Both the position numbers and the translations under genes were made by a program. DNA of 64,000 bases, taken from positions 1 through 64,000 of the forward strand of contig JAKOVQ010000053.1 of NCBI GenBank assembly GCA_029781975.1, read 5' to 3'. The notes beneath the pieces are model-generated. The model did no database searches and was not told the DNA's origin. It saw nothing but the letters and a program-made list of their open reading frames with translations. This DNA is from Acidobacteriota bacterium (GTDB lineage: Bacteria; Acidobacteriota; Thermoanaerobaculia; UBA5066). Shown piece by piece: positions 2,401-49,600 of the stretch; within the stretch, counting starts at the first letter, position 1, and every line of letters starts with the position of its first letter.

Positions 2401-4012
2401 CGGCGAACCACCTCTGCGTCGTCCGGTCGCGGAAGACGCGGTAGAGCCCTCCCCCCTCGAGCTCGACGTCCCAGTAGTCGCGGGAGACGGGCTCCTCGGA
2501 CCACCAGCCGTCCTCGAGCTGCCAGGGGCCGGCGGCGACGCGGACGGTGCCGTGCAGCGCGAGCGGCGGCGGGCCGCCGCCCGGCGGCGGGTCGGCGGAG
2601 GGCGGGAGCGAGCGGAGGGAGAGGAGGCGCGGGGCGGGAAGCTCGTCGCCCGTCAGGACCTCGAGCTCGACGGCGGGCCTGAGGACGCGGACGGCGAGGA
2701 TGCCGCGGGCGGGGCGGGGGGGCGGCGTGACGACGGGGGCGGGGGGCGGGGCGAAGGGGGCGAGCGCGAAGCGTTCGGGGCGGTGGCCGTCGACGCTGCG
2801 GGGCGACCCGGCGCGCCCCTCGCCGAGGAGGGCGAGGAGGCGGGCGAGGGCGGTGGCGAGGCTGTCAGGGGAGATCTCGGGGGGGCCGAAGAGGCTGAGC
2901 TGGCCGCTCCGGGGGCGGTCGGGGTGGGCGGTGAAGGAGAAGCCGGCGACGGCGGCGCCGGGGGGACGCGACTCGAGCTCGAGGCGGACGAGGGAGAGGA
3001 GCGTCTTCGCCTCGCGCGTCGGGGCCGGGAGGGAGAGGGCGCGCGCGTCGTGCCCCTCGGGCTCGAGGCGGAGGTCGACCTCGAGCCGCAGGCAGCCGAG
3101 CGCCTCGGCGGCGAGGCGCGTGCAGAGGCGCTCGAGGGCGGCGGCGGCGAGGGCGAGGAAGGGCTCAAGGGTGGCGAGGGGCCAGTCGAGCCCCATCCCC
3201 TCGACGAAGACGGGGGCGGGGGGGCGCGGGACGAGCGGCTCGGGGTCGAGGCCGCGGGCGGTCTCGTGGAGGCGCCGCCCCGTCTCGCCGAGGCGGCTCG
3301 TCACCTCGGCGGCGGGGAGGCGCGCCAGCTCGCCGACGGAGCGGATCCCCCACTTCTCGAGGGTGGTCGCGAGGGAGAGCTCGGGGGCGAGGTGGGAGAG
3401 GGGGAGCGGGGCGAGGAAGGCCGTCTCCTCGCCGGGGGGGACGACGGTGACGGAGGTGGAGGAGGTGGAGGAGGTGGAGGAGGTGGAGCTGCCAGAGCTG
3501 GCCGAGCTGCCGGCGGCGACGCGGGCGGCGAGCTTGCTCGAGGCGATGCCGGCGCGGGCGGGAAGGCCGGCCTTCCCGGCGGCGGCGACGAGGTCCTGCC
3601 CGAGGGCACGCTCGTGGGCAGCAAGGTCGGCGGCGGGGTCGGCGGCGCGGCGGGGGAGGCCTTCGAGGTCGAGGTAGACGAGCCCCTCCCCGGCGTCCTC
3701 GACGCGGGGCGAGAAGGTGCCGGCGACGTCGAGGAGGGCCTCCTGGGCGGAGCGCTCGCCTTCCGGGTCGCGGCCGCGGGCCATCAGCTTCGGGAGGAGG
3801 GCGCGGGCCTGGGGGAGGGTCATGCCGGGGCGGATGCCGGCGGTGCGCGCCTTGCGCGTCCCGGCGACGACGCGGGCGGCGGTGCCGTTCCCCTCGGCGA
3901 GGACGACGGCCTCCCCCAGGAGCGCGGGCTCGTTGCGCAGGCGCGCGGCCAGCGGGAAGAGGGGGACGCGGAGGCAGGCGAGGCGGGGGGACGGCGTCGA
4001 TCGGGCGGACAC
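2384..4012 (-). CDS. imuB: ImuB-like Y-family polymerase-related protein
   Basis: The 542-residue protein resembles ImuB, the catalytically inactive Y-family member that links ImuA and DnaE2 to the beta clamp in SOS mutagenesis. The N-terminus ([20 protein letters not shown]) replaces the acidic DMDxFFASVE motif with hydrophobic residues. The helix-hairpin-helix/little-finger part follows ([20 protein letters not shown]). The tail contains the typical ImuB C-terminal region ([19 protein letters not shown] ... WFADGVYD). A Ser/Thr-rich stretch at about residues 170-195 is encoded by a GGAGGTGGA-type microrepeat. The GTG at 4012 is chosen because it lies 8 bases after the imuA stop and starts the conserved part. 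No dnaE2 follows; intI takes that place. Confidence 0.85.
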
Positions 4013-11083: not shown

Positions 11084-11524
11084 GTGGAGACGCCGAAGCG
11101 ACCCGGTGAGAGCCGCCACGGCCAGGGCGGTCCCGCGCATCCCCCCCGGAGCCTCGAGGTGACGCGGCCGACGGTCGTCCTCGGGACCCCGCAGTCGAAG
11201 TCCGAGGTCACCCGGCCGGTGATCCGGCCCGACCAGCTCGTCACCGAAGGGATGAAGGCGCGCCGTCGCGAGATCGAGCGGAAGAAGCGCGCGGCGCGGC
11301 TGGAGAAGCTCATCCGCGAGGAGGAGAACGCCGCCATCAAGTCGCGGATGACGCGCTTCATCCTCTGGACGGCGGTGATCGTCCTCGCGGCCTGGGGGTA
11401 CTTCAAGGTCCAGGAGGCGCACAGCAACCAGTGGCCGATCATGGACGTCTGGATCGTCATGTCGATCGCCGTCTTCGCGGGGATCGGCTGGATCCTCTGG
11501 TACCAGAACAAGAGCGATCTGTAG
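11084..11524 (+). CDS. Small membrane protein downstream of the ETF oxidoreductase
   Basis: This 146-residue protein is not recognised. The first 50 residues are polar and probably disordered. A highly charged helix follows (residues 58-85, MKARRREIERKKRAARLEKL). Two membrane segments come next (about 96-112, FILWTAVIVLAAWGYF, and 120-138, IVMSIAVFAGIGWILW). The GTG at 11084 is preceded by GGAGG. It starts 25 bases after the oxidoreductase stop and probably shares its transcript, so a role in assembly or anchoring of that enzyme is possible but unproven. Confidence 0.75.
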   Translation: METPKRPGESRHGQGGPAHPPRSLEVTRPTVVLGTPQSKSEVTRPVIRPDQLVTEGMKARRREIERKKRAARLEKLIREEENAAIKSRMTRFILWTAVIVLAAWGYFKVQEAHSNQWPIMDVWIVMSIAVFAGIGWILWYQNKSDL

Positions 11525-11683: not shown

Positions 11684-11921
11684 TCTCGCGCCCGGGGGGC
11701 GCGAGAAGCGGGCGGCGGGCGCCCCTGCGCGAGTCCGTCCGAGCACGGGCCGGGACCCGCTCGCCCGGGGGCCCGCCCCCGGAGGACCAGGCGGACCTGC
11801 TGTCTGAGCGAAGCGAGTTCAGGTCCGCCCCGGAGGGGGCGGGGCTCCGGGCGCCAGCGGGTGACCCGCGCGCAGCGGACCGCGCGGGGGCGTCCGTCGC
11901 CCGCCCCCCACGCTCGCACGG
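11684..11921 (+). repeat. Dispersed structured element, copy A
   Basis: This 238-bp intergenic element is shared with copies at 29861-30103 (inverted) and 30411-30648. A 5' hairpin (TCTCGCGCCC / GGGCGCGAGA, loop GGG, 11684-11706) precedes a long interrupted stem: GCCCCTGCGCG pairs with CGCGCGGGGGC, GTCCG with CGGAC, and ACCCGCT with AGCGGGT. At the tip a 10-bp stem (GGCGGACCTG / CAGGTCCGCC, 11790-11829) carries the conserved 20-base loop CTGTCTGAGCGAAGCGAGTT. Stems differ between copies with compensation, while the loop is kept. All three copies also have an open frame reading LS(D)ERSE, which I take to be incidental. Confidence 0.8.
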
Positions 11922-11934
11922 ATTGTCCCCGCCG

Positions 11935-12026
11935 GATCACGGATCACAGACCTGACCCCCGGGCGGTGACCCCCGGGCGGTGACCCCCGGGCGGGTGACC
12001 CCCGGGCGGGGTGCCCCCCGGGGGTG
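11935..12026 (+). repeat. 25-bp shared tail followed by a GC-rich tandem repeat
   Basis: Positions 11935-11959 (starting GATCACGGATCACAG, ending CCTGACCCC) are identical to 30274-30298. The sequence then continues into four to five tandem units of about 14-16 bp (GACCCCCGGGCGGT, with the last units degenerating). The GGGGTCAGGTCTG motif on the minus strand resembles sequence I know from the flanks of REP-associated (Y1) transposases; that link is recollection, and no transposase is present here. The rest of the 11525-12037 gap, outside copy A, holds nothing I can identify. Confidence 0.7.
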
Positions 12027-12037
12027 ACTTCGAGGGA

Positions 12038-12331
12038 TCAGAGGTCGTCGAGGGGGTTGCGGGGGCGGCCGGGGTCCTTCTGGGCCTTCTCGAGGGCTTC
12101 CTTGAAGGTCTGCTCGAGGATCTCGCTCTTGTGCTTCTCGCGCTCGACCGTCGCCGCGAAGAGGTCCTGGGCCCTCTCCTTGCGGCGCGCGATCTCCGCG
12201 GCCGCCTCCTCGAGCGACCCCAGCTTCCGCTTCGCGCTCGCCGCGTCGTGCGACAGGACGGCCCCGGTCGCCCGCTCGACCTTCATCGTCGTTCCACAGT
12301 CGGGGCAGATCACGAGGAGCGGCTCGTCCAT
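12038..12331 (-). CDS. Small zinc-ribbon and coiled-coil protein
   Basis: This 97-residue protein is of unknown function. A CPDCG knuckle near the N-terminus (residues 9-13, LLVICPDCGTTMKVE) is half of a zinc ribbon, and no second Cys pair is visible. The remainder (about residues 35-85) is a charged helix predicted to form a coiled coil (LEEAAAEIARRKERAQDLFA), and the C-terminus is polar (GRPRNPLDDL). It is transcribed divergently from yraN with only 26 bases between the starts. Confidence 0.72.
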   Translation of the reverse strand: MDEPLLVICPDCGTTMKVERATGAVLSHDAASAKRKLGSLEEAAAEIARRKERAQDLFAATVEREKHKSEILEQTFKEALEKAQKDPGRPRNPLDDL

Positions 12332-29860: not shown

Positions 29861-30103
29861 CCGTGCGAGCGTGGGGGGCGGGAGTCGAAGGCCCTCACGC
29901 GGTCCGCTGCGCGCGGGCCACCCGCTTTCGCCCGGCGGCGCGACCCCTCCGGGGCGGGCCTGAACTCCTCGCTCCGCTCGTCAGACAGCTGGCCCGCCTG
30001 ATCCTGCGGGGCCGCGCCGGCGGGCGAGCGGGTCCCGGCCCGTGCTCGGACGGACTCGCGCGAGGGCCTTCGCCTCCCGCCTTCGCGCCCTCCGGGCGCG
30101 AAG
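29861..30103 (-). repeat. Dispersed structured element, copy B (inverted)
   Basis: This 243-bp copy lies on the minus strand, 109 bases upstream of the M16 protease start. Its 5' hairpin is CTTCGCGCCC / GGGCGCGAAG with loop GGA (30081-30103). Its basal stem GGCCCTCGCGCG / CGCGTGAGGGCC differs from copies A and C at several pairs, and the pairing is kept. The tip stem is GGCGGGCC / GGCCCGCC around a 6-base-longer version of the conserved loop (CTGTCTGACGAGCGGAGCGA). The rest of 29753-30410 outside the copy is non-coding. Confidence 0.8.
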
Positions 30104-30273
30104 AGACGGGGCGGCGCCGGAGGCGCTGCGAAGGTCTTGTATCTCGTGAGGCGGAGCCCGTGCTCGAGGGGGCATTGCCCCGAAAGCGTGGGGGCCGCGG
30201 GTGCTCGAAGTCGCATCTGTCGCCGTCCCCCGCAGAGCTCGAACAGGTGGTCTTCCGCAGATCGCAGTTCACA

Positions 30274-30298
30274 GATCACGGATCACAGACCTGACCCC
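30274..30298 (+). repeat. 25-bp repeat identical to 11935-11959
   Basis: This exact 25-bp match (ending ACAGACCTGACCCC) to the sequence after copy A lies here between copies B and C. Its position relative to the nearest structured element differs from that at copy A, so it may be a separate element or the relic of an end of a larger mobile unit. Confidence 0.7.
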
Positions 30299-30410
30299 AA
30301 GTCCGGGATCCCAAGTCCGCGAAACGAGGATCCATGCGGTCAGAGTCGAGGCGATGGCCAGCTCGCTTCGGTAAAGGGAGGAAGCTTGCCCCTGGAGAAT
30401 TGAGGATTTC

Positions 30411-30648
30411 GTCGCGCCCGGGGGGCGCGACGGGCGGGCGGCGGATGCCCCTGCGCGCGTCCGTCCGAGCACGGGCCGGGACCCGCTCGCCCGGGGGCGC
30501 GCCGGGAGCGGGATCAGCGCGGCAACTGTCTGAGCGAAGCGAGTTTTGCCGCGCCCCGCGGACGGCGCGCCGCCGGGCGCAAGCGGGTGGCCCGCGCGCA
30601 GCGGACCGCGCGGGGGCGTCCGTCGCCCGCCCCCCGGTGCTCGCACGG
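30411..30648 (+). repeat. Dispersed structured element, copy C
   Basis: At 238 bp it is the same length as copy A and lies in the same orientation. It ends 15 bases from the stop of the molybdopterin oxidoreductase gene, on that gene's downstream side. The 5' hairpin is GTCGCGCCC / GGGCGCGAC with loop GGG (30411-30431). The tip stem GCGCGGCAA / TTGCCGCGC (30517-30554) differs in sequence from that of copy A yet pairs perfectly around the identical 20-base loop (30526-30545). One base in the basal stem is unpaired in all copies (A in A and B, C here). Confidence 0.82.
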
Positions 30649-30662
30649 TCAGGAGCGTTCGC

Positions 30663-32615
30663 TCAGTCTGGGGACGCGACGATCCGCACGCGGCAGTCCT
30701 GGTACGCCGCTCCTTCGCCCGCATCGGTCGTGCGGGCCCTCACCAGGACGTTCGCGCAGGTCCCGGAGTCGTAGTGGCCCCCCTTCGGGACGATGACGAC
30801 GTCGCGGCGCTGGAGGGGGTCGAGCTTCAGGCGCGCCCGCATCCGGCCGACCTCGCTCTCCAGGACGACGAGGGCGCCGTCGGCCAGGCCCGGCGCGGCG
30901 TCGGGATGACAGGTCGCCTCGGCGACGTCGGGCGGCGTGCCGGCCCACTGGGAGCTCTGGGCCCGTTCGGTCGAGTTGGAGAAGAGCCAGAGCGGGTAGC
31001 CGGGTTCGTCGTCGGGGGGAAGGGGGAGCTCCGTCAGGAGCCGCATCTTCCCCGACGGGGTCGGGAACCGGTTGCCGGCGAAGAGGAGCTCGGGGGCGAG
31101 CGGATTGCGGACCGACTCGCGCTCGAGCCGCTCGACGGTCAGGCCGAGGGGCTCGATGCGGGAGAGGAGGCGGCGCTTCCAGTCGCGGGCGCTCCCCGCG
31201 AGCCTCGGGGCGAGGGCGGATTCGGAGCCGGCTCCGGAGCGAGCGTCGATCTCGGCGGCCAGGGCCTGGACGATCTCGAGGTCGCTCCTCACCTCCGGCG
31301 GGCGCTCCACGACAGGGACCGACGCGCCGAGCCAGTGGTTGCCGTACGCGCCGAGGAGGTCGTCGTCCTCCACGAGGGTCGTCGTCGGGAGGACGAGGTG
31401 CGCGCGGCGCGCCGTGTCGGTGAGGAACGAGTCGACGACGACGACGAGCTCGCGCGTCTCGAGGGCGCGAGCCACGGTGGCGGAGTCGGGGAGCATCGCC
31501 ACGGGGTTCCCCGCCGTCACCCAGACGGCGCGAATGGCGGGATTCGTCGCTTCGAGGATCTCGCGGCCGAGGAGGGGCTCGCTGAGCGTCCGGGCGGATG
31601 CCTTGCGGAGGAAGGAGGTGTCGAACGCGCCGCGCCGCTTGAAGTAGAAGCTGACGCCGCCGCCCGGGATGCCGAGGTTCCCGGAGAGCGCGCCGAGGGC
31701 GTCGAGGGCGCGGACGATCGCCGAGCCGTTCGTCCGGCGGCCCATTCCCCAGCCGACCTGGATGTTGCAGGGGCGGTCGGAGAGGGTCGACGCGAGGAGC
31801 TCGACGGCGGGCTCGTCGACGTCCGCCTCGCGCGCCCAGCCCGCGACACCCTTGGAGAGGGCGAGCGCGCGGAAGGTCTCGAAGCCCTCGGTGGCGGACG
31901 GGGCGGCGGGGACCACGCGGCCGGTCTCGAAGAGCCGGGCGGCGACGGCGAGGGCGAGGGCCAGGTCGCCGCCGGGGCGGGGCGTCAGGACCGCGTCGGC
32001 GAGCGACGCGGTCTTGTGGTGGACCGGGTCGATCAGGACGATCCGGGCGCCGCGGGCGCGGGCCTCCTTCAGGAGCGGGAGGAGGTGGACGTTCGAGACG
32101 AACGGGTTCTTCCCCCAGAGGAGGATGCCGCGGGAATTTCGCAGGTCGAAGAGATCGTGCGACTCCTCGTCCCCGAAGTCGGTCTCCTGAGCCGCGTCGC
32201 CCGCCCCCGAGCAGATGTCGCCCCGCTTGAGGGTGACGGGGCCCAGCAGCTCGAAGAAGAGGTCGACGACGTACTTGAGGAGGCCGAGCGAGCCCCCCGA
32301 GCGGTAGTGGAGGATCGCCGCCGGGCCCGAGTCGGCCCGGATGGAGAGGAGACGGTCCGCCGCGAAGGCGAGCGCCTCGGTCCACGAGACCGGTCGCAGG
32401 GCGCCGTCCACTCTGAGGAGGGGTGCCGTGAGGCGGGCCGGGTCGTTCTGCCGGGCCGGGAACTGCGTCGTCCGCGAGCAGAGGAAGCCGCGGGTCACCG
32501 GATGGTCGGGGTCCCCGCCGAGCCGGACGAGGCGGCCGTCCTCGACGGTGGCGACGAGGCCGCAGGCGTCCGGGCAGTCCCGGTTGCAGACGGTGCGGAG
32601 GCGAGCGGTGGACAT
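30663..32615 (-). CDS. Molybdopterin-dependent oxidoreductase (DMSO reductase family)
   Basis: The 650-residue protein is a cytoplasmic-looking member with no Tat signal. The N-terminal [4Fe-4S] motif is CNRDCPDAC ... FLCSR (residues 9-47). The molybdopterin domain follows (KRGDICSGAGDAAQ, GILLWGKNPFVSNVH, VLIDPVHHKTASLADAVLTP). A C-terminal dinucleotide-binding domain (LWLFSNSTERAQSSQW ... VVLESEVGRMRARLKL) completes the fold. It resembles anaerobic dehydrogenases annotated as formate dehydrogenase- or thiosulfate reductase-like, and the substrate cannot be read. It is divergent from the hydrogenase operon and shares its 269-base upstream region. Confidence 0.88.
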   Translation of the reverse strand: MSTARLRTVCNRDCPDACGLVATVEDGRLVRLGGDPDHPVTRGFLCSRTTQFPARQNDPARLTAPLLRVDGALRPVSWTEALAFAADRLLSIRADSGPAAILHYRSGGSLGLLKYVVDLFFELLGPVTLKRGDICSGAGDAAQETDFGDEESHDLFDLRNSRGILLWGKNPFVSNVHLLPLLKEARARGARIVLIDPVHHKTASLADAVLTPRPGGDLALALAVAARLFETGRVVPAAPSATEGFETFRALALSKGVAGWAREADVDEPAVELLASTLSDRPCNIQVGWGMGRRTNGSAIVRALDALGALSGNLGIPGGGVSFYFKRRGAFDTSFLRKASARTLSEPLLGREILEATNPAIRAVWVTAGNPVAMLPDSATVARALETRELVVVVDSFLTDTARRAHLVLPTTTLVEDDDLLGAYGNHWLGASVPVVERPPEVRSDLEIVQALAAEIDARSGAGSESALAPRLAGSARDWKRRLLSRIEPLGLTVERLERESVRNPLAPELLFAGNRFPTPSGKMRLLTELPLPPDDEPGYPLWLFSNSTERAQSSQWAGTPPDVAEATCHPDAAPGLADGALVVLESEVGRMRARLKLDPLQRRDVVIVPKGGHYDSGTCANVLVRARTTDAGEGAAYQDCRVRIVASPD

Positions 32616-44817: not shown

Positions 44818-47800
44818 TCAATCCGCTCCCTTCCGGCCGCAGACGAAGACCGCGGCCGTTTCGGCGGGGACGAAGAAGGACCCGTCGGACGGCGAGAACC
44901 TGGAGTCGCGGACGACCCGGTCGTAGGAGGACCTCAGGACGGGGTGCAGGTCGAGGGGAACGCCGGCAAAGGCCGTATCGGCGAACGTGACCGAGAGCGG
45001 CCGGGCGTTGAAGAGGACCACTGCCGTATCCGCGGCGGAGGGGCCCCGGCACGCCCGGGCGAAGGAGCCGCCCGGCGCGTCTGCGAGGCTCATCACGATG
45101 AGCCCGGGGACCTGATCGGGCCCGGTGTTATGGAACCGGACGATCTCCTGGACCCGGGCGGCGTCCTCGAGGGTGAAGAACCGGGAGCTCCTGCGGATCT
45201 CGAGAACCTCGAGGAGGTGCCTGGTGGCCTGGCGGATCCGCGCGGTGTCGGGCTTCAGGGCCGGATCGGCCAGCAGGGGAGCCATGATCGGAAAGTTCGC
45301 CTGGTTCTTCCCGGCGACCGGGAGCCCCGACCCCCAGGAGCTCGTCTCCTGTGTGAAGTCGATCCGGTTGAACCAGTCACCCGAGTTGTAGCTGTCGCGG
45401 TCCATCGACTTCGACCTCAGCAGCTCGTCGCCCGCGTGGAAGAACGGCAGCCCCTCGGAGAAGGCCACGAGGCTGAGGCCGAGGTTGTGCATCCGAACCC
45501 GCTCGTCGAGACCCGCGGCACGAGCCGCCTTGAGCTGCACGGCGTCGAAGAGGGTCTCGTTGTCGTGAGCGGAGACGTAGGTGACCGTCTCGCCGGGCCG
45601 GGCGGCATAGCCGGCGGGCTGGCCGTTGTAGTCGACGTCGTGCCCCGTGACGGTGGCGCCGCTCGCTCCCTGGAACGAGTAGCTCGCCAGGCCGCCGGAG
45701 AGGCCGACGCGGATCTGGTCCTGGTTCAGGAGGAGCCGCGCGCGCTGCTCGTCCGCGGTCCCCTGGTCGAACGAGCTGGGGTCGAAGAAGAGGCCCGTCA
45801 GGAACCCCTGGGCGCGCACGTCGGAGAACGGGCTGCCGCCGCGCGCCGCGTCGCGCAGGCGGTCGTCGAAGGTGGCGATGCCGGTGCCGGCCATGTTGAG
45901 CTGGGTCGCGTTCACGCCCCGGGCGCCGTTCGCGACCTCGCCGAAGTCCCAACCCTCTCCGTAGAGGAGGATCTTCGAGCCGTCGACGCCGTCGACGGGG
46001 ACGGTGAGGCCGCGGAGCGAGTCACGCACCTTCAGCATGTTCGCCTTCATGTGGTGGCCCATCAGGTCGAACCGGAAGCCGTCGACCTTGTACTCCCGCG
46101 CCCAGACGAGCAGGGAGTCGACCATCAGCTTCTCCATCATCGCGTGCTCGCTCGCGGTGTTGGCGCAGCAGGTCGACGTCTCGACGTTCCCGTCGGCGTT
46201 CAGCCGGTGGTAGTAGCCGGGGACGATCCGGTCGAGGACCGATTTCGGGTCCTGACCCGAAGCCGTCGTGTGGTTGTAGACGACGTCCATCACCACCCGC
46301 AGCCCGGCGCGGTTCAGCGCCTGCACCATCTGGCGGAACTCGAAGGTCCGGCGCGGCCCGTCGGGGTCGGTGGAGTAGCTCCCCTCGGGGACGAAGTAAT
46401 GGAACGGGTCGTACCCCCAGTTGAAGCCGTCGTCGTCCGCGACGGCCGTCACCGCCTTCTGCTGCTCGTCGGAGTCGGGCGGGAGGGCGGCGAGGTCGGC
46501 CGCGGGCTCCTTCCACGTCGTCCGGTCCTCGCGCACCGTGGCGAAGTCGAACGCCGGGAGGAGGTGGACGTGGGTGAGCCCCGCCCGGGCGAGGGTCTCG
46601 AGATGCCAGAGGCCGTGGCTCGTCGGGGAGGCGAACGCCGCGAAGGTCCCCCGCAGGGGCGCAGGGACGCCCGGGTCGGTCGCGCTGAAGTCACGGACGT
46701 GGAGCTCGTAGATGACCGAGTCCCGCGGCGAGCGGAGCTCCGGCTTGAGGAGCTGCTTCCACCCCGGCGGCTCGAGGGCCGGGTCGTCGAGGTCGACGAC
46801 CTGGCTCCTCAGGCTGTCGCGCGAGAGGCTCGTGGAGTAGGGGTCGGTGACGACGTTCTGCTCGACCCCGTTCGCGCTCGGAACGTAGACCTCGACCTGG
46901 TACAGGTAGAAGAGTCCCTTCCAGGACGCCTCGCCCGCCGCGCTCCAGACGCCGGTGGCCGCGTCGAGCGTCATCGGGACGGGGCTGGCGTCGGTCGTCG
47001 TCGAGTCCGCGTAGAGGAGGAGCGTCACCCGGCGCGCCGTCGGAGCCCAGACGCGAAGGGTCGGGATTCCGTCCGCGAAGGTGACGCCCAGAGGCCCGTC
47101 GTACGGGTAGAGGTCGTCGAGGACGCCGGGGACCTGGAGCATCGTGGCGTCGAGGAGCTGGCCCGAGGCGTCGGTCGCGGAGACCGCCACCTGCTCGCGG
47201 AGGAGGTCCTTCGCAGTCGCCGCCGCTTCCCCGGAGAGCTTCAGGGCGGCGTACCCCGCGAGCTGGGGGAACTTCCCGGTCACCGAGGCGGGGAGGCCGG
47301 CGGGGTCGGCCGTCAGCGGGACCGCGGCGCCGCCCGTCACCCCCTCGGGAGCCAGCCGAAGCGAGCCCGCGGGGTCGTGGTGGAGGAGGAAGACGGTTCC
47401 GGCCGCGACGGGGAGGTTCCAGGCGACGGTGTCGCGCGAGACCCAGTGGGCCTGGGCCTTGCCGAGGCTCCCGCGCTGCCCCGTCCCGATCGTCAGGACG
47501 TGGGTGAGGGGGTCGTAGGAGAAGGTGATCTCGGCGTTGTCCTTCGGGACGGTGAACGACACGTTCGGTCCGCCCCGGACGCCGCCGGCACCGTAGTTCT
47601 CGTCCCAGGACTCGGAGATGGCGACCTTCGCCTCGTAGGTCCCGGCCGGGAGCGCGGAGGTCGTGAAGGCGTACGTCCCGTCGCCGTCCGGGTCCTCGAG
47701 CCAGGAGCGGAGGCAGCCCGGGCTCCAGTCTGCGCCGCAGCCGAGCGCCTTCTGGAAGCTCCCCGGGACCGTGGCGATGACGGAGTTGGCGCTGCTGGTG

Positions 47801-48867
47801 ACCCAGTGGGTCCGGTTGTCGTAGTAGAACGTGACGGTCGTGGCCGCCGCGAGCTTCAGCGGGATGTTCGCCCCGCCGCGGGTCGCGTTCAGGCCGTAGT
47901 TCTCGTCCCACGTACCGTTCAGCGCGGCCTTGTACTCCCAGTCGCCGGCCGGGACGTCGAAGGACCTCTGCCAGACGCGGTCCTCCTCGTCGAACGCCAG
48001 CGCCGTCGCGTCGCACGCCGGGTCCCAGTCGCCGGCGCAGCCGAGCTCGCTCTGGAGCGAGCCGGGGATGACGACCCAGGAGGGCTGGGGCCCCTCGGGG
48101 GGCGTCGACCCGATGGTGAGGACCCTGGTCGCCGAGCTCCAGACGAAGAAGAGCTCCTTGCCGGCCTCGGCGACCGTGAACGGGATGTTGGGGCCTCCCG
48201 GGACGCCCCCCGCGCCGTAGTTGACGTCCCAGCTCTCGCCGAGGGCGACCTTGGCCTCGTACGCGCCGGGGGGGAGCGCCGCGGTCGTGAAGACGTAGAC
48301 GCCGTCTCCGTCCGGGTCCTGGAGCCAGGAGCGGAGGCAGCCGGGGTCCCAGTCGCCGGAGCAGCCGAGCGCCTTCTGGAAGCTGCCGGGAACCGTCGCG
48401 ACGAGGGAGCTCTCGCTGCTGGTGACCCAGTGGCTGACCGGGTCGAAGTAGAACTTGACGTCCTTGCCCGCAGCGAGCGTCAGGACGAGGTTGGCGCCGC
48501 CGGGCGCTCCGCCGGCGCCGTAGTTCTCGTCCCAGGCGCCGTTCAGGGCGACCTTGAACTCGAAGGCGCCGGCCGGGAGGGCGAAGGTCGCCTGCCAGAC
48601 GCCGTCGCCGGCGTCGAAGACGAGGTCGGTCTTGTCGCAGCCCGGGTCCCAGTCGGCGGCGCAGCCGAGCTCGCTCTGGAACGAACCGGCCAGGGTCACT
48701 CGATCCGGCTGGGCCAGGGACGCGGGGGCGACGACGAGAAGGGCGAGAAGGGCGAGGGTGCTCAGGGGTGTGAGAAGGGTCGCGAGAGGAGAGTGGCGAG
48801 GCTGCTGGAGGAGCCGGTGGCTGACCGGGCAGGGCGTGGAGACGAGGAATCGTCGTCCCGTCGACAT
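44818..48867 (-). CDS. pulA: Secreted pullulanase-type alpha-1,6-glucosidase
   Basis: The 1349-residue GH13 enzyme hydrolyses alpha-1,6 branches of pullulan, starch or glycogen. A signal region (residues 25-52, [20 protein letters not shown]) precedes four tandem pullulanase-associated X25-like modules of about 100 residues, each with SFQSELGC or [14 protein letters not shown] and WDENYGAGG phrases. An N-terminal CBM48-like domain follows ([20 protein letters not shown]), then the GH13 barrel with [10 protein letters not shown], nucleophile region [11 protein letters not shown], acid LLYGEGWDF and YVSAHDNET. The start is set at the ATG at 48867, preceded by AGGAGG, rather than a far-upstream in-frame codon. 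Confidence 0.93.
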
Positions 48868-48964
48868 GGGTGCTCGACCTCCTGGCGGTCTCTCATCATA
48901 GACCTTCGTGGAACGACGAATCGTGCGCATGGGGAGGGTATCCTTGGCAGCCGGAGGTGCCACC

Positions 48965-49600
48965 GTGACGCGACCGTCAGCCAGCCGTTTCGCACTCCTC
49001 GCCGCCGTCCTCGTCCTGGTCCCGGCCGGCTGCCGGAAGCCCGAGCCCGCGGCCGAGGAGGGGAAGGAGCTCTCGAAGAACCCGATCGCCGCGATGGGAC
49101 AGATCAGCGACGCCGCCGAGAAGGCCCAGAAGGCGATGAAGGAAGCCGGGGAGATGAAGGCGGTCCCCCCCGTTCCCTTCGCGAAGCTGATCGAGCTCCT
49201 GCCGCCCGCTCCCAACGGATGGACGCCGGACGGGGAGCCCCGCGGGGAGACGACCACGGCGGCGGGCTTCAGCGTCTCGAAGGCGGAGCGGAGCTTCTCG
49301 AACGGCGACAAGCATCTCCACGTCTCGATCACCGACGGCGCGTACAACGCGCCGCTCTACGCCGCGATCACGATGGTGGCCCAGTTCTCCCACGAGTCGA
49401 CGGAGGGGTTCGAGAAGGGCGTGACGATCGACGGCGAGCCCGGGGTGGAGAAGTTCCGGAAGGACGGGGGCCACGGCGAGATCACGGTCGTCGTCGGGAA
49501 GCGGTACCTCGTGACCGTGGAGGCCGACGGGGTGGCGCCGGACTTCGCGCGGACCGTCTTCGGCCAGGTCGACCGGGCCCGGCTCGCCTCGCTCAAGTGA
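48965..49600 (+). CDS. Putative lipoprotein of unknown function
   Basis: The 211-residue protein starts at GTG 48965 (GGAGG 7 bases upstream) with a lipoprotein signal (FALLAAVLVLVPAGC, lipid-modified Cys near 23). The mature part is helical at first (AEEGKELSKNPIAAMGQISD, AAEKAQKAMKEAGEM). It then forms an alpha/beta domain with VSITDGAYNAPLYAAITMVA and HGEITVVVGKRYLVTVEADG. I do not recognise the family by name. The ending may reflect a transfer-type fold (TVFGQVDRARLASLK). It lies 40 bases before the alanine-dehydrogenase-like gene on the same strand. Confidence 0.78.
   Translation: MTRPSASRFALLAAVLVLVPAGCRKPEPAAEEGKELSKNPIAAMGQISDAAEKAQKAMKEAGEMKAVPPVPFAKLIELLPPAPNGWTPDGEPRGETTTAAGFSVSKAERSFSNGDKHLHVSITDGAYNAPLYAAITMVAQFSHESTEGFEKGVTIDGEPGVEKFRKDGGHGEITVVVGKRYLVTVEADGVAPDFARTVFGQVDRARLASLK

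Follow-up and report, generated by a model that had tools for sequence, protein, structure and literature searches.

A family of ~240-nt folding intergenic repeats with inverted-doublet geometry in an Acidobacteriota bacterium

REPs and REPINs are among the commonest repeats in bacterial genomes and are explained by RAYT transposases. Described REPs occur as inverted doublets with compensatory changes (PMC3116915), lie between convergent genes and serve as insertion-sequence targets (PMC1525189), and several of those in PMC2817692 also have a GCGNAGC apex. The family of ~240-letter folding intergenic repeats analysed here is previously undescribed, and it resembles REPINs and BIMEs in being intergenic, dispersed, arranged as inverted palindromic doublets with compensatory changes, sited between convergent genes and targeted by other repeats (PMC3116915, PMC2817692). 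There are also differences. PMC3733652 gives REPs and REPINs a size of 20-40 bp, about one-tenth of the ~240 nt found here; REPINs and BIMEs number in the hundreds of copies, compared to about 20; REPs and REPINs carry a GTAG/CGTC tag at one end, while the ends of the 240-nt element carry none; and they flank a RAYT gene, whereas the 240-nt element was found at none of the examined RAYT loci. In addition, the apex and internal loops of the 240-nt family are conserved across genera while the stems change, which sets it apart from REPINs. MITEs and other elements with long terminal inverted repeats are also similar, being non-coding, dispersed units with inverted ends and no transposase, as is the unit found here at three sites; however, no target-site duplication was seen in the new family, long structured hairpins of two different kinds form its ends, and no parent transposon was found. 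The Rfam families HEARO, ROOL, GOLLD and others have a large covarying structure in common with it, but none of them was present here at gathering score.

Structure, covariation and distribution of the family

The window, meaning the whole 64,000-nt stretch of contig JAKOVQ010000053.1 that was analysed, contains three copies (Table 1). The preliminary description, made from the letters of the window alone, had placed copies A, B and C at these coordinates and strands and had given them a common fold with a 5' hairpin, a basal stem and a tip stem. Both statements hold: the copies form the 5' hairpin and a ~200-nt rod with a tip, a fold far more stable than shuffled sequence (RNA folding z of -7.4, -9.0 and -9.4 for the three copies; DNA folding z of -6.5 for copy A), and the three hairpin variants and double changes reported between the copies are real. 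Two corrections are needed, since the conserved outer 3' end GCTCGCACGG was missing from the earlier list of parts, and B and C, which had been counted as separate copies, are not independent but form the two ends of one composite unit. Elsewhere in the window, tandem ~300-bp repeats occupy positions 47521-48690 inside a long reverse-strand open frame (44818-49347).

Table 1. Positions of the repeat elements and associated features in the window
Feature	Position	Strand	Description
Copy A	11684-11921	+	Single element: 5' hairpin, rod, apex, 3' end GCTCGCACGG
Convergent genes beside copy A	11084-11524; 12038-12331	+; -	
5' hairpin of copy A	11684-11706	+	TCTCGCGCCC/GGGCGCGAGA
Apex module of copy A	11800-11819	+	CTGTCTGAGCGAAGCGAGTT, C(GAA)G triloop
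Conserved 3' terminus of copy A	11912-11921	+	GCTCGCACGG
RAYT-type repeat	11934-11959	+	GGATCACGGATCACAGACCTGACCCC; ~12 bp outside the 3' end of copy A
Composite unit (~788 bp)	29861-30648		Inverted doublet B + spacer + C; ends CCGTGCGAGC...GCTCGCACGG
Copy B	29861-30103	-	Left end of composite unit; extended-apex type TGACGAGCGGAGCGAGGAG
Composite-unit spacer	30104-30410		No gene called; one RAYT-type repeat at 30281-30298
Copy C	30411-30648	+	Right end of composite unit; apex stem type GCGCGGCAA/TTGCCGCGC

In the genome to which the window belongs, BLAST yielded 32 matches. Once partial and reverse-arm matches are set aside, 18 copies that are complete or almost so remain; there are fragments as well, several of them at contig ends. 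These copies are 83-95% identical to copy A. Full copies measure 235-245 bp, begin TCGCGCCC..., with the starting hairpin TCGCGCCCGG(A/G)GGGCGCGA, and finish ...GCTCGCACGG. Flanks beyond these borders are mostly unrelated among the copies, and the repeat GATCACAGACCTGACCC(C/T) stands shortly beyond the 3' end in seven of them. The last 50 bases of contig C14 of the same genome, past its element (G000:C14:268510-268559), equal the window flank 30649-30698, which is probably an assembly artefact at a repeat.

The element strand folds into the 5' hairpin and a single ~200-nt rod, which is interrupted by asymmetric internal loops and capped by the apex. When 29 core sequences taken from several genera, among them relatives at ~70% identity, were aligned, 42 core pairs were supported; two-sided compensatory changes occur in 28 of these (28/42), a number reached by none of 500 shuffles. 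Cells with two-sided changes numbered 153 compared to 46.5 in shuffles, and 95.8% of the cells in the alignment are paired, compared to 32-51% in slid controls. This strong covariation bears out the earlier proposal that the structure of the ~240-nt family is under selection. C(GNA)G forms the apex of about 50 of the 54 copies, the N and the stem below it being variable; the script used to locate it reports a near-centre match in 54/54, but in four copies (G9_C401, L006, L102 and L103) the match is off the apex or in a disrupted one. Across all 54 copies the loop letters are GAA in 33, GGA in 12, GCA in eight and GTA in one, while the apex stem varies among GAGC, GACGAGC, GAGGAGC, GAGCGC, GAGGCC and GAGCCC with the partner arm retained. 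GCGAAGC mini-hairpins are, according to published papers, extraordinarily stable as DNA, and a role as single-stranded DNA is therefore plausible, though not proven. Folding energy is lower on the sense (+) strand than on the opposite strand in 47 of the 54 copies (mean difference -8.2 kcal/mol), an advantage that in our reading comes mostly from purines among the unpaired letters of that strand. In helices predicted from both strands, wobble pairs comprise 12 GT and 9 AC; given this balance, the helices carry no strand signal. A possible pseudoknot between CCGTCCGAGC and the 3' end GCTCGCACGG, suggested by eye, was set aside: both strands are invariant in the window's own genome and the 3' end is not kept in the other genera.

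A covariance model (R1), the check suggested in the preliminary description, was built and used to search genomes, yielding matches in 11 of the 14 genomes of the same family and none in other genomes of the order. The own genome contains 21 matches, G001 contains 15, and each of four genomes of genus g5 contains 7-11; genus g3 is represented only by short hairpins that share the apex. Four such g3 hairpins (L140, L141, L143 and L145) are roughly 70-110 nt long and lack the rod of the large family. The exact apex pattern was present in only 3 of 297 sampled genomes of the phylum, all from the same family, and a strict-pattern scan of public genome contigs identified only two contigs, titled Thermoanaerobaculia and Acidobacteriota. 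A search of Rfam at gathering and permissive thresholds returned nothing relevant, with no family reaching its gathering score. The claim of a new family is thus upheld by the lack of an Rfam match and the limitation of model matches to one bacterial family.

Inverted doublets, genomic sites and age

Many copies form doublets, which are inverted with their 3' ends outward (-,+) at 14 of 14 independent loci (counted by hand from model matches, with orthologs merged), and the reverse arrangement never occurs; the probability of this outcome by chance is 4e-9 with free orientations and 6e-5 among inverted pairs only. The two members are usually of different types, and their spacers range from ~60 bp to 1.1 kb, most being 60-400 bp without a called gene. 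Copies in G001 are single, with weakly conserved flanks. The B/C doublet recurs at two further, unrelated sites of its own genome (G000:C22 and G000:C27), where left elements are 95-98% alike, right elements 92-99% and spacers 86-89% over the three sites. Similarity stops sharply at both ends, at CCGTGCGAGC for the left element and GCTCGCACGG for the right one, the proportion of three-way identical columns dropping from 0.7-0.95 to 0.1-0.35 at the termini. This recurrence with sharp ends indicates that B and C terminate a single unit of ~788 bp, which has 10-bp inverted termini; inspection by eye revealed no target-site duplication at its three sites, nor was an empty site seen. As in REPINs, the dispersed unit is an inverted doublet, here one doublet in three copies and always (-,+), and it is extragenic with a preference for convergent gene ends.

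Of 32 independent sites, 24 lie between convergent genes; among the 42 gaps of the window, 10 are convergent (binomial P 1.5e-9). These figures rest on a codon-usage gene caller trained on the window and applied to 53 loci, with orthologs merged and both neighbours known at the 32 sites, and they are hand tallies against a small background sample (the 42 window gaps). Doublet B/C is itself located between two co-directional genes. In the related genus, six loci of G004, G009 and G011 have homologous flanks, mostly 90-98% identical, and at one locus the doublet or its remains are kept in four species, with one member of another type in G011. Since sites are common to species of this genus, the elements there are old residents; judging from these comparisons, they look immobile and appear to have been retained vertically over a long time. 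Between orthologs, copies are 86-95% identical, while their spacers, where tested, resemble each other no more than shuffled sequence does. Among double changes between orthologs, 27 keep a pair and six break one. Part of this pairing signal reflects conversion between copies, because whole apices are sometimes exchanged. A second repeat of ~85 nt consists of a variable part of ~40 nt and, after it, a nearly constant hairpin like GGGGGGTCCGGGGGGCCGCGCGAAGCTCAGGCCCCCCGGCGAGCG, whose loop includes GCGAAGC. This repeat is inserted in some of the large elements, at the apex or the stem base (L081, L082, L084, L088, L110 and L136); it is present at one G009 apex and absent from that apex in G004. 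Its position inside the apices is similar to that of insertion sequences using REPs (PMC1525189).

RAYT genes, short REPINs and the apex in viral contigs

The own genome contains one RAYT/Y1 gene (G000:C37), flanked by inverted GGATCACGGATCACAGACCTGACCCC repeats, and this gene and repeat form a RAYT-REP system beside the 240-nt family. The GGATCACGGATCACAGACCTGACCCC repeat occurs at 30 places in the genome, allowing up to one mismatch in the core, with the window examples at 11942-11959 and 30281-30298, and its inverted copies around the RAYT gene lie at L048 1422-2431. Related genomes contain from 0 to 10 RAYT/Y1 genes, and RAYTs are present in most of the genomes that contain the element. 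Tight inverted GTAGACCTGACCCC pairs in g5 look like ordinary short REPINs. The short REPINs of these genomes (GTAGACCTGACCCC, GGATCACGGATCACAGACCTGACCCC) have the same outward inverted geometry as the 240-nt doublets and often stand beside 240-nt elements; however, they are separate from them, flank RAYT genes and are unrelated in sequence to the large family. A model search of 11 Y1/RAYT loci did not find the 240-nt element (best score 12.5 bits), while 6 of the 11 have GACCTGACCCC-type repeats on one or both sides. RAYT/Y1 was accordingly rejected as the mobiliser of the element, as no examined RAYT locus is flanked by it and two RAYT-bearing genomes do not contain it. An autonomous version between the distant copies C4:3 and C4:6071 was also considered and rejected, the interval containing ordinary-looking genes and no recognised transposase, and no transposase was recognised between the members of any doublet.

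The 20-letter apex pattern CTGTYTGA-GCGNAGC-GAGTT was found in 14 viral contigs, compared to one for the reversed control. Nearly all of these apices sit atop long complementary arms, in contigs of 32-63% GC, and the rods are unlike those of the window family. Possibly, though we regard it as rather doubtful, the near-invariant apex marks a class of long-hairpin mobile elements across unrelated bacteria, in which rods vary freely and one putative tip-recognising enzyme serves all. A literature search for the apex sequence returned unrelated matches only; a plasmid collection searched with copy A and the viral-contig hairpins, and a phage collection searched with the viral-contig hairpins, gave no match. 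One viral contig with an apex hairpin at 3992 also contains an Rfam sRNA-Xcc1 match (70 bits; L158 555-640).

Interpretation and alternative explanations

The preliminary description had offered a non-coding RNA or a hairpin mobile element, and of these the mobile element is favoured by the doublet at three unrelated sites, its sharp ends, the REPIN/BIME-like doublets and the convergent gaps, while an RNA gene is less favoured. We consider it somewhat probable that the elements constitute a REPIN/BIME-like family of non-autonomous mobile DNA with 240-nt hairpin ends. The mobile unit would consist of two elements, related but dissimilar, that form an inverted doublet and point their 3' termini (GCTCGCACGG in the own genome) outward; most likely a putative hairpin-recognising enzyme acting in trans moved this unit as single-stranded DNA. 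The features recognised by such an enzyme may be the purine-rich internal loops, which are conserved, and the C(GNA)G apex. Several observations weigh against this reading: no mobilising gene was found, with the element absent from all 11 RAYT/Y1 loci examined, neither a target-site duplication nor an empty site was seen, the elements look immobile in the related genus, and the better folding of the sense strand would suit a transcribed RNA as well. Most units would have settled between convergent genes, where an insertion should be least harmful, and singles are probably doublets that have lost a partner or elements that moved singly. REPIN-like as it is, the 240-nt element falls outside the REPIN definition because it is too large, has no GTAG/CGTC tag at its ends and is absent from every examined RAYT locus.

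There are several potential alternatives to a mobile DNA family. It is conceivable, but unlikely, that the elements are structured non-coding RNA genes, transcribed from the side of the 5' hairpin, with rod, loops and apex acting as RNA and doublets representing divergent genes. The strong covariation is consistent with this, as are the purine-rich conserved loops and lower RNA folding energy of the sense strand, the conservation of orthologous elements beside spacers at the shuffled level, and the single copies with weakly conserved flanks in G001; however, there is no Rfam match, the 5' flanks differ among closely related singles of the own genome, so that no promoter is shared, strand-neutral helices contain GT and AC mismatches in similar number, and dispersal is transposition-like with sharp ends. 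Similarly unlikely is a role as bidirectional transcript-end elements, in which each hairpin at convergent gene ends would end or protect the 3' end of an mRNA that reads into the element in antisense. This would explain the doublets and the convergent gaps, and it agrees with retention at orthologous gaps and with roles of REPs in termination and mRNA stability reported in PMC3733652 and PMC2817692. Against it, doublet B/C sits between co-directional genes, singles between co-directional genes show no preferred orientation (the 3' end points toward the stop codon in three of six and not in the other three), and no intrinsic-terminator T-run follows the 3' end in the flanks of the own-genome copies.

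It is very unlikely that the elements delimit, on the left and on the right, a composite transposon that captures single genes as cargo. Although the two ends are inverted and of different type, and some spacers contain complete frames (135 aa and SnoaL-like, a likeness judged by eye, at G011:C226; 301 aa at G004:C327; 280 aa at G000:C2:252658-253742), most spacers, at 60-400 bp, lack a called gene, the 301-aa frame has a poor coding score and lies at a locus common to species, and no transposase was recognised between the members of any doublet. Almost no weight can be given to a short protein family with the frame LSERSEF / LSDERSEEF, the coding view that the preliminary description had set against a structural one. 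No stop interrupts the frame across the apex in 17 of 18 copies, but long chance frames are abundant in the GC-rich DNA here. The coding reading is rejected because indels of a single base alter the frame from one related copy to another, a stop codon breaks the proposed frame in one copy, and changes in length are matched between the arms (+3/+3, +1/+1) as the stem requires.

The family offers clear predictions for transcripts and mobility, along with a ready covariance model and a set of several related genomes. A family that is tenfold larger, with conserved internal loops and a conserved tip, and for which no link to the RAYT genes present was found, yet has the geometry and site preference of REPINs, suggests that this strategy has more than one origin or depends on another enzyme.
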